From Nitrosopumilaceae archaeon (GTDB taxonomy: Archaea > Thermoproteota > Nitrososphaeria > Nitrososphaerales > Nitrosopumilaceae): 34,690 nucleotides of DNA. The notes beneath the pieces are model-generated. The model was not told the origin of the DNA and ran no database searches. It was given only the letters and a program-made list of their open reading frames with translations. Within the stretch, counting starts at the first letter, position 1, and each line of letters begins with the position of its first letter. The translations under genes were made by a program, and so were the position numbers. Shown one piece after another: positions 7,340 through 10,651 of the stretch. Where the stretch lies: positions 1-34,690 of the forward strand of contig DASQHX010000009.1 of the NCBI GenBank assembly GCA_035631875.1, read 5' to 3'.

Positions 7340-8575
7340 TTAGAATTTAAGATCAGAAAAGTTAGTCTTAAATCTTGTAAACAGGATAACCATAGATACA
7401 ACTATAGCCATAACCATTACAGCGCTGACTGGAAATTCTGGAACTGCTGAATTGTTAATTGGTAATGGTCCAAGTGGTGCCGCTGTTGTAACATCAACCT
7501 TGATTAATCCAGATAATGTATTATCAGGAACTGTGTTTTCCTGTCCAGTACCAGCAACATTTATGATATAATGTGTAGTCGGAGGAGGCTGATTGATTAC
7601 AATCGTTCTAAAATCAGTTCCTACTGGTGCAAACAAAGAACTCTTACCAAGGTCTTCTGCAACAGAACCAATTTTTTTTCCTTGATCATCTACGGTATAG
7701 ATATCATATTGAATATTTTGAATTTTCTGGTTTGGATCATAGTTTTGTTCAAAGTACAATGACCACTGAACTGGACATCCTTGATGAGGAACTGCTGGAG
7801 TATACCTATATTCAATAATCATAGAACTGGTATCAGTGTTTATGGATTGGTGAACTGCTGAGGTATCATCCGTTGGACAAATTCCCTCTCCAGGTTTGGC
7901 AGTAGAAACATTATTTAGAAATGAGGGCGGGGTTTGACTGTTTCCAGTTTCCAATATTTCAAAATTAAATTGTGGTGGAGGCGATCCTTGTGTAACATCT
8001 GTATAGACTATAGCTTTTACCGGAAATGGCATACCTGGTACTACCCACAGTTTGTTATCTACACCTTTGTGCCAACCAATAACCCATGCTTTGTATGTAC
8101 CTCCCTGAACAGTTACTTGTTCTTGATCAATTGGTCCCACTGATTGACCTCCAACTGATCCTGTTCTACCCCATGCCGGATAACTAAAGTCCTTTGGAGA
8201 ATCAGATGTTGCAAATGCATCTAACCAGATGATTGTATTTCTGTAAACATTGGTATAATCAGCTATATTTGGATCAGAGTATGTAGGATCTGGTGTTACC
8301 ATTCCAAATACAGTATGACCTTTTTGTATATTGCTTCCATCAATAGCAAGAAACTGCACATTATAACCACTGCCATCGCTAGTTTTATTCTGAATCCAAA
8401 AGTCAATCTCTATTGGAGTGCAGTTATGCCAGTCAGTAAAGCATGTACTATATCTGTAATAATCGCCTACTTTGAGTCCCTCACCTGGATACCAAGTCTC
8501 AGCAAATGCAGAATGTAGTCCAATGGGGATTAAAAATAAACCGGCAGAAAATGCTAAAAGAAAATACTTTTGCAT
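7340..8575 (-). CDS. Secreted surface protein with C-terminal PEF(P)-type sorting/anchor tail
   Basis: 411 aa from the ATG at 8575 (MQKYFLLAFSAG). An in-frame TTG at 8614 exists, but TTTAACTATA near 8602 is at the right distance for a leaderless mRNA from 8575 and the signal peptide begins there, with cleavage after SAFA. Mature residues begin WYPGEGLKVGDYYRY, and NKLWVVPGMPFPVKA follows at about 174-188; both motifs recur in the downstream neighbour. The extracellular Pro/Asn/Thr-rich part ends VPEFPVSAVM, a hydrophobic helix and a basic tail, resembling the PEFG-CTERM archaeosortase signals of Thaumarchaeota. It is probably a processed surface protein of unknown function. Confidence 0.75.
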   Translation of the reverse strand: MQKYFLLAFSAGLFLIPIGLHSAFAETWYPGEGLKVGDYYRYSTCFTDWHNCTPIEIDFWIQNKTSDGSGYNVQFLAIDGSNIQKGHTVFGMVTPDPTYSDPNIADYTNVYRNTIIWLDAFATSDSPKDFSYPAWGRTGSVGGQSVGPIDQEQVTVQGGTYKAWVIGWHKGVDNKLWVVPGMPFPVKAIVYTDVTQGSPPPQFNFEILETGNSQTPPSFLNNVSTAKPGEGICPTDDTSAVHQSINTDTSSMIIEYRYTPAVPHQGCPVQWSLYFEQNYDPNQKIQNIQYDIYTVDDQGKKIGSVAEDLGKSSLFAPVGTDFRTIVINQPPPTTHYIINVAGTGQENTVPDNTLSGLIKVDVTTAAPLGPLPINNSAVPEFPVSAVMVMAIVVSMVILFTRFKTNFSDLKF

Positions 8576-8649
8576 TGGCTGTATAAGAAAAAATCCTATA
8601 GTTAAATCTTTCAAATAGGCAAATATAATGGCACAATATTATTTTGTCT

Positions 8650-8820
8650 ATGTGCGAATGTGAGAAGGTACACATGTATGAAGTTGAGTTCAAGTTAGAT
8701 GGAATGGTTGTTGTACCAACACACAAAAATTGTGGAATTGCCCTAAATGAAAAACAGGTAGACAAATTCCAAAAAGAATTGGTAAAAACATGGGGCATTC
8801 AGGGTGAAGAAGAAAAATAA
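8650..8820 (+). CDS. Small CxC protein, 56 aa
   Basis: ATG at 8650, stop at 8820. The product starts MCECEKVHMYEVEFK, carries a third Cys in HKNCGIALNEKQ and ends with a Glu/Lys-rich tail. The CxC pair plus His and the distal Cys could bind one metal. An AAATATAAT box at about 8621-8629 stands about 25 bases before the ATG, so a leaderless mRNA is likely. It is divergent from the secreted protein at 7340-8575 and convergent with the metallothionein-like gene 8863-9006. No family is recognised; composition and promoter support a real gene. Confidence 0.6.
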   Translation: MCECEKVHMYEVEFKLDGMVVVPTHKNCGIALNEKQVDKFQKELVKTWGIQGEEEK

Positions 8821-8862
8821 TACAATTATCTTAAAAATAAAAGAAAAAGGAGTTTCCTAAAT

Positions 8863-9006
8863 CTATTTGAATGTGGCTACCTGAGTCTTACAGGTTGATT
8901 GTTTGCAAGTACAATTAGCATCACAGTAGCATTCTCCTTGCATTTGGCAATCGCATTCTACTTTATTATCTGCGGAAGATTCGCATCCGCATGCTGCATC
9001 TGTCAT
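8863..9006 (-). CDS. Metallothionein-like Cys-rich miniprotein, 47 aa
   Basis: ATG at 9006, stop TAG at 8863. Nine of 47 residues are Cys, mostly in CxC pairs: C6/C8 (ACGCES), C18/C20 (ECDCQ), C26/C28 (ECYCD), C32/C34 (NCTCK) and C39. There is no hydrophobic core or signal peptide. This is the composition of metallothioneins, which hold Cu, Zn or Cd in thiolate clusters in the cytoplasm. A TTTAAAA box at about 9030-9037 lies near 27 bases before the ATG, and an AGGAG stretch follows it. In a copper-dependent ammonia oxidiser a metal store or buffer is plausible, but that role is inferred from composition alone. Confidence 0.72.
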   Translation of the reverse strand: MTDAACGCESSADNKVECDCQMQGECYCDANCTCKQSTCKTQVATFK

Positions 9007-9078
9007 AACTGGGATTTCTCCTACAGGGTTTTAAAGGTTGTCAAAAAATCAACGAATTAAAAAACGGTGTTATGGACT

Positions 9079-9960
9079 TCAATTTTTTATTATAGTTAGA
9101 AGATCGTTTGTTGTTTTTAAGAGAATTGTCGCTTGGCGCTCAACTACCAATGGATCACTTTCTGTATCAAGAGCAACTTTGAGCAAATGTGCATATTCTA
9201 AGTTATGGTGCAATGTATTCTTTATTTTGATCACATTATTTCGATTTATGTAACCAAGGTAAAAGTAACAATCTGAAAGAAGTGAGTTTTGCACTAGATA
9301 GTCATATTTCTGTTGAATTATTTTTGAATGATTATTTTTCTCTACCATATCAGAAAAACCAATGGTAGATTTTACCATCCTTGAAAGAAGTGATGTTGAT
9401 GCTCTTTCAATTCCAAGACATTGATGAACAACTAGAAAATTCTGGTTAATCTTATTTTTATCAAATCCACGAATTATTTCCAACATGTGGGTTGGACTAG
9501 GTCGCTTTGAATTTATCAAGAATATAGCATCTGCAAGAAAATAAGATGCGCATTTTATCCAAACATCTGCCAAAGCATCTGATGATTTAACAAGTTCTTT
9601 TGCTTTTGCTGCATAGACACCTGCATCTACAAGACAGTTTTGTATATATGAATTTGAAATTTGTTTACTCTTTGTTTTTATCTTTGTTAGGAACATTCGA
9701 AGATTCCATTGTTCATCTATCAAAACCTTCATGTCTTCTAGCTGTTTCAAAACACCAACATTATTTTCAGAGAGTGATCCGTGATGTAATTTTATCATAT
9801 TTCCATCTATTTCATGTATAGACGATTCTTCTTGTTTGTCATCAAACACCGTGATATTATACTCACAACACTGAAAATTATTACCATTATTTCTACATCC
9901 ACCCAATCCTACTGGAAGATTGGAAAGTGAAAGTTTTTCTGGCAGAGTTTTCAAATCCAT
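9079..9960 (-). CDS. Hypothetical helical protein, 293 aa
   Basis: Start ATG MDLKTLPEKLS. The first 35 residues contain GLGGCRNNGNNFQCCEY, three Cys that may bind metal or form disulfides. The remainder is predicted nearly all helical (YIQNCLVDAGVYAAKAKEL, DALADVWIKCASYFLADA, SDPLVVERQATILLKT) and resembles helical bundle folds, without membrane segments. No catalytic motif is recognisable. It stands as a single transcription unit between the metallothionein-like gene and tRNA-Glu, the latter divergently oriented. Function unknown. Confidence 0.65.
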   Translation of the reverse strand: MDLKTLPEKLSLSNLPVGLGGCRNNGNNFQCCEYNITVFDDKQEESSIHEIDGNMIKLHHGSLSENNVGVLKQLEDMKVLIDEQWNLRMFLTKIKTKSKQISNSYIQNCLVDAGVYAAKAKELVKSSDALADVWIKCASYFLADAIFLINSKRPSPTHMLEIIRGFDKNKINQNFLVVHQCLGIERASTSLLSRMVKSTIGFSDMVEKNNHSKIIQQKYDYLVQNSLLSDCYFYLGYINRNNVIKIKNTLHHNLEYAHLLKVALDTESDPLVVERQATILLKTTNDLLTIIKN

Positions 9961-10228: not shown

Positions 10229-10393
10229 TTAAAATCTACGTTCGCCACGGTGTTTTGGTAAACATTCGCGACAATATACCGGTCTTCCTTCTTTTGGTTG
10301 GAATGGGACTTGGGTTTCTTTTTTGCAATCCGCACAAGTGGCAGGATACATTTTTCTGTCTGCGTCCATGACTTTTGGGATTTTTATCCACAT
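10229..10393 (-). CDS. CxxC-x17-CxxC zinc-binding miniprotein, 54 aa
   Basis: ATG at 10393 to TAA at 10229. The protein MWIKIPKVMDADRKM then shows CADC at residues 20-23 and CREC at 41-44, exactly 17 residues apart, followed by LPKHRGERRF. This is the CxxC-x17-CxxC zinc-ribbon-like domain known from small archaeal and bacterial proteins and often linked to nucleic-acid binding. A longer open frame (10236-10424) on the same strand, in another frame, lacks this pattern and is a shadow. ATAAAATG upstream and an AGGTGAT stretch before the ATG support the start; Met9 at 10369 is an alternative. Confidence 0.78.
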   Translation of the reverse strand: MWIKIPKVMDADRKMYPATCADCKKETQVPFQPKEGRPVYCRECLPKHRGERRF

Positions 10394-10480: not shown

Positions 10481-10651
10481 ATGGTTGGCCCCCAAGATGG
10501 TGGTTTTGGTTTTGATGGTGCGAAAAAATATTCTACCTTAGAAAATTCCAATGCTATATGCGTTCAGTGCCAAGCAGGTCAACATGTTAAATGTATTGCT
10601 AAGAGTGATTCTAGCACAACATGTGATTGCGAATTATGTCTGCTTGATTAA
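10481..10651 (+). CDS. Cys-rich miniprotein, 56 aa
   Basis: ATG at 10481, TAA at 10651. A Gly-rich N-terminus (MVGPQDGGFGFDG) leads to six Cys: CVQC at residues 27-30, C38, and CDCELC at 48-53. The C-xx-C / CxCxxC arrangement suggests binding of one or two zinc ions or a small Fe-S/copper site. It lies divergent from the CxxC-x17-CxxC gene, and its stop overlaps the 3' end of 10648-11286 by 4 bases. No family is recognised. Coding is supported by the clustered Cys and clean frame, not by length. Confidence 0.6.
   Translation: MVGPQDGGFGFDGAKKYSTLENSNAICVQCQAGQHVKCIAKSDSSTTCDCELCLLD

Follow-up and report, generated by a model that had tools for sequence, protein, structure and literature searches.

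The window analyzed here, the whole 34,690-nt stretch of a Nitrosopumilaceae contig, encodes on its minus strand a 47-aa protein with nine Cys residues (8863..9006). The ORF is a real gene under selection and, within a sample of the class, the protein is restricted to one family of ammonia-oxidizing archaea (AOA). Its most probable role, to which we give a probability of roughly 0.6, is to buffer metal in the cytosol through its thiolates, copper being the likeliest cargo; we infer all four of its location, metal binding, cargo and buffering function. In many relatives a second copy of the domain forms the tail of a membrane protein.

Identity of the nine-Cys gene

The protein MTDAACGCESSADNKVECDCQMQGECYCDANCTCKQSTCKTQVATFK is the translation of the minus-strand ORF 9006..8863, whose ATG is the first start codon past the in-frame upstream stop. 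A first, sequence-only reading of this DNA had described a metallothionein-like protein with nine Cys in 47 residues, mostly as CxC, and the translation bears out that count: Cys makes up 19% of the residues, and eight of the nine form four CxC pairs. First-order random DNA was simulated with the dinucleotide composition of the window, and 20 Mb of it contained no run of three consecutive CxC units of this kind and four open frames with 9 Cys in 36 aa. The median dN/dS of the gene is ~0.2 (464 pairs), and TGT/TGC swaps are seen at 9/9 Cys codons. The low ratio and this synonymous switching together indicate purifying selection on the protein. Moreover, the protein was found in 228 of the 250 genomes of the family and in 22/22 genera, and since the frame is conserved to this extent the ORF must be real. 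A chance ORF is ruled out by the conservation, the dN/dS value and the random-DNA simulation.

Distribution and Cys spacing

All five genomes of the window's own genus (5/5) encode the protein, as do 127 of the 131 good genomes of the family, defined by a completeness of at least 90% and a contamination of at most 5%. A profile built from 25 relatives (A1) was searched against a 400-genome sample of the class, in which the window's family accounts for 221 genomes and the rest of the class for 179. It matched 203 of the 221 family genomes and none of the 179 others, the matches listed all lying in the family; the 22 genera matched, out of 82, are the family's 22. A wider spread in the class was rejected, as within this sample the profile found no relative beyond the family.

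In addition, 84,980 species were scanned for a DNA motif, and the matches listed include Nitrosopumilus, Nitrosotalea, Nitrosotenuis, Nitrosarchaeum and Nitrosopelagicus, which identifies the family as the Nitrosopumilaceae taken broadly; six of the motif-scan loci examined lacked the domain and were chance matches. The bare CxC-x5-CxC-x3-CxC pattern also occurs in DNA outside the family, where those of the listed matches that were read are mostly low-complexity TGN repeats. A virus-borne gene was rejected as well, no relative of the protein having been found in IMG/VR.

The invariant columns of the A1 alignment are the nine Cys, G7 and D19. Family-wide, the spacing is CxC-x9/10-CxC-x5-CxC-x3-CxC-x4-C, the sole changes being x9 versus x10 between the first two CxC pairs and a rare extra Cys. 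The sequence-only reading had named in advance what would speak against it, namely a frame or Cys spacing not conserved in related genomes; checked across the family, the gene passed decisively.

Promoter, terminator and neighbors

A TATA box (TTTAAAA, 9029..9035, minus strand) lies 29-23 nt upstream of the ATG and is recognized by its spacing and its conservation. Of 108 distinct upstream regions, 99 have the motif TTTTAAA or TTTAAAA with its start 28-30 nt ahead of the ATG, compared with 9 of 652 control ATGs, so that the TATA box first noted as plausible is real by conservation. Across the same 108 regions the T/A positions -28 to -24 are near-invariant, and a pyrimidine directly precedes the ATG in 107. 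Just upstream of the TATA box is an AACC (9036..9039, minus strand), which may act as a BRE-like element; with 1.79 bits, the A at -33 hardly varies. Judged by archaeal promoter anatomy, the distance from TATA box to ATG means that transcription should begin on the ATG or right beside it, so that the nine-Cys gene probably has a leaderless transcript. On the other side, a T-rich tract just past the stop (8833..8849, minus strand), between the gene and a convergent small ORF, is the likely terminator, and 109 of the 112 downstream regions contain a T-run of at least 5 no more than 60 nt past the stop. With its own TATA box at a fixed spacing and its own T-rich terminator, the nine-Cys gene would be carried on its own transcript.

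The standalone gene keeps the same upstream, convergent and downstream neighbors across genera. The upstream neighbor (9079..9960, minus strand; 154 loci) is a 293-aa protein of no known family that serves as a synteny marker of the standalone locus. The convergent ORF (8650..8820, plus strand; 150 loci) encodes a ~56-aa protein, MCECEKVHMYEVEFKLDGMVVVPTHKNCG..., mostly >80% identical among the matches listed and without a Pfam or NCBIfam match. The downstream synteny marker is a 424-aa exported protein with a weak PEFG-CTERM match (7340..8614, minus strand). None of these conserved neighbors is a copper gene, which counts against a copper role. The CEC and HxxC residues of the convergent protein could bind metal. 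Two further small ORFs were seen in the window: one at 10481..10651 (plus strand) that encodes 56 aa, five of them Cys (ICVQCQAGQHVKCIAKSDSSTTCDCELC and its flanks), and has no family match, and a 54-aa treble-clef zinc finger protein with CxxC-x17-CxxC (PF23477 / TIGR04272) at 10229..10393 (minus strand).

Relation to known metallothioneins and copper stores

No Pfam family, including PF00131 and the prokaryotic metallothionein models, matched the window protein, and no NCBIfam family scored above its cut-off for the window protein or for any of the 25 members of A1. A PDB search with the nine-Cys domain likewise gave nothing above threshold. Two relatives reach PF00131 below threshold, the best at 15.0 bits (E 0.027) against a gathering cut-off of 23 bits, and in one relative positions 5-29 of that profile align, sub-threshold, to residues 18-42.

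In size and composition the protein is what the broad definition of a metallothionein describes: low mass, high Cys content and CxC clusters, the latter invariant in A1. Metallothionein beta domains and the short fungal Cu-thioneins share the core spacing CxC-x5-CxC-x3-CxC, and the standalone proteins inventoried have it exactly. The likeness to these eukaryotic proteins thus extends to small size, Cys-richness, absence of Trp and core spacing. The nine-Cys protein differs from them in an extra N-terminal CxC placed 9-10 residues before the core and in a single C-terminal Cys; it is also archaeal, scores below the PF00131 cut-off and has a membrane-fused form. The bacterial metallothioneins SmtA and BmtA are likewise small, Cys-rich, metal-buffering proteins of prokaryotes, a binding role that for the nine-Cys protein is predicted. 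SmtA and BmtA have a zinc-finger-like fold, His ligands and CxxC motifs, whereas the nine-Cys protein has no conserved His. The protein would seem to work like a metallothionein yet lies outside PF00131: the first description as metallothionein-like holds for the likely mode of action, judged from the spacing and conservation of the Cys, but not for membership of the curated family. In a literature search covering papers available without subscription, none was found that ties a metallothionein to AOA.

The other likeness is to the copper storage protein Csp (PF03860, DUF326 Cys repeats), also a Cys-rich copper store proposed for AOA. Csp is, however, a four-helix bundle with ~18 Cys, unrelated in sequence and found mainly in a different family, and PF03860 matched neither the window protein nor anything else in the window genome.

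A different Cys-rich protein, with tandem CNCSADGVCTCGEGCTCGEGCTCG repeats and a further domain, was seen in a relative (L236; G019:C4:13500-18180), where it sits at a contig end adjoining small membrane proteins.

Copper context and the probable cargo

The window genome encodes AmoA. Csp was found in 19 of the 62 genomes of family f3 (probably Nitrososphaeraceae), in one genome of another family and in 1 of the 221 genomes of the window's family, counts obtained with an insensitive 21-residue model. The distribution of the nine-Cys protein is the opposite, a contrast in which lineage and function are confounded because it lies between few clades. Csp has been proposed as a copper-storage protein in Nitrososphaera viennensis (PMC7785015), and a reconstruction placed its acquisition in the ancestor of the Nitrososphaerales (PMC7554672), in agreement with our counts. 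Marine AOA are reported to lack the known genes for copper detoxification but to withstand more copper than ammonia-oxidizing bacteria do; Shafiee et al. stated that no copper efflux proteins are encoded by AOA genomes and questioned the mechanism of tolerance (PMC9723733). Our analysis qualifies that statement, as some members of the family do have CopA-like ATPases: 35 of 121 family genomes carry a CopA-type ATPase whose score exceeds the curated cut-off. The best CopA candidate of the window genome falls below it (372 bits versus 397 bits).

In the relative JOPF002 (G217:C12; L058/L259), two extra, near-identical and inverted nine-Cys copies flank a 4.4-kb stretch, and one of them lies 0.4 kb downstream of amoA. 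Adjacency to amoA as a general rule was rejected: it was seen in JOPF002 alone, and the amo cluster of the window genome has no adjoining copy.

The Csp contrast, the CopA-type ATPases missing from most of the family and the one copy beside amoA are circumstantial evidence that fits the copper role put forward in the sequence-only reading. The main rival has the same thiolate buffer serving zinc, or a general Zn/Cd detoxification. Nine Cys spaced much as in a beta domain could also accommodate three Zn(II), and the P1B-like ATPase candidates of the window genome, all of them below the copper cut-off, may be Zn/Cd exporters, so that a zinc/cadmium economy may also exist in this organism. A CxC-rich spacing with no conserved His is, however, common in Cu-thioneins too, the opposite distribution to Csp is a comparison that covers the copper store only but points to copper, and the copy beside amoA does so as well. 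We therefore regard zinc as a much less probable cargo than copper, although a better-placed alternative than either of the roles discussed below.

As a copper buffer, the protein would use its nine invariant Cys to enclose several d10 metal ions in a cluster, in all likelihood Cu(I). It would thereby keep in buffered supply a metal that ammonia oxidation cannot do without but that is toxic in its free form. The standalone form has no signal peptide, which suggests that it is cytosolic.

The membrane-fused form

The membrane-fused paralogs, missed in the first reading, are the most unusual part of the finding. In many relatives the domain recurs as the C-terminal end of a protein of ~460 aa, which consists, in order, of a signal peptide, a beta-rich ectodomain, one TM helix ending in Lys/Arg and the nine-Cys tail. 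By the positive-inside rule this tail is predicted to be cytoplasmic. The fused form is present in at least nine genera (g3, g5, g8, g9, g11, g13, g15, g18 and g21), and we know of no counterpart to it among known metallothioneins.

The window genome has an ortholog of the fusion partner (C1:20980-21990, 35% identical) without the nine-Cys tail. The fusion-partner membrane protein of JOPF002, which lies in the amoA region described above (L058/L259), has had its tail exchanged for a zinc-ribbon-like C-terminus whose Pfam score is below the cut-off. Some Nitrosopumilus fusions carry a domain of the "DQACGC" subtype and others one of the "AACGC" subtype. As the tail may be absent, zinc-ribbon-like or of either nine-Cys subtype, the domain appears to be a module that has been shuffled.

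The one representative of the fusion partner that was scanned matched no Pfam family, and against NCBIfam only weak rows were obtained, for one member each. The AlphaFold model of the ectodomain and TM helix (pLDDT 75, pTM 0.75) gave no Foldseek match at E<0.001 (the best was 0.023) and VIA-align Z scores below 5.

In terms of the copper buffer, the fused tail would be a membrane-tethered copy present in part of the family and could catch metal, or hand it over, at the membrane. The same architecture could be read as a metallochaperone or sensor module, in which the domain, standalone or fused, would pass metal to a partner or take it from one, as for insertion into ammonia monooxygenase or in signaling through the membrane protein, instead of storing it. 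The tether itself, in at least nine genera, and the exchangeable tail would suit such a role. Known copper chaperones, however, use one MxCxxC site and not nine Cys, and the ectodomain has no fold or function that the Pfam, NCBIfam, Foldseek and VIA-align comparisons recognize; we consider this reading improbable. A thiol redox buffer or antioxidant, whose Cys pairs would cycle between dithiol and disulfide in place of a low-molecular-weight thiol that the lineage lacks, is equally hard to favor: thiols held in a protein would be of use, given that the gamma-glutamylcysteine route is reported for the Nitrososphaerales and catalase is missing from the Nitrosopumilales (PMC7554672), but a spacing of all nine Cys that is fixed family-wide exceeds the needs of a bulk thiol pool, and the protein has no CxxC redox motif.

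Taking the copper buffer further, the soluble and the membrane-anchored domains might together form an unrecognized copper system that defines the Nitrosopumilaceae, buffering Cu(I), delivering it at the membrane to the ammonia-oxidation machinery and replacing the copper store and the efflux pumps that most members lack. We put this forward only tentatively, as a proposal that may well prove too broad.

Significance for the Nitrosopumilaceae

The marine and acid-soil AOA depend on copper enzymes. A genome survey left the copper tolerance of marine AOA unexplained (PMC9723733), and the nine-Cys protein occurs in exactly the family of these archaea, which includes some of the ocean's most abundant microbes. 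What we describe looks like an internal copper (or zinc) sponge not previously known in these copper-dependent archaea, and the near-universal nine-Cys protein is a concrete candidate where an internal copper buffer of the Nitrosopumilaceae had been missing.
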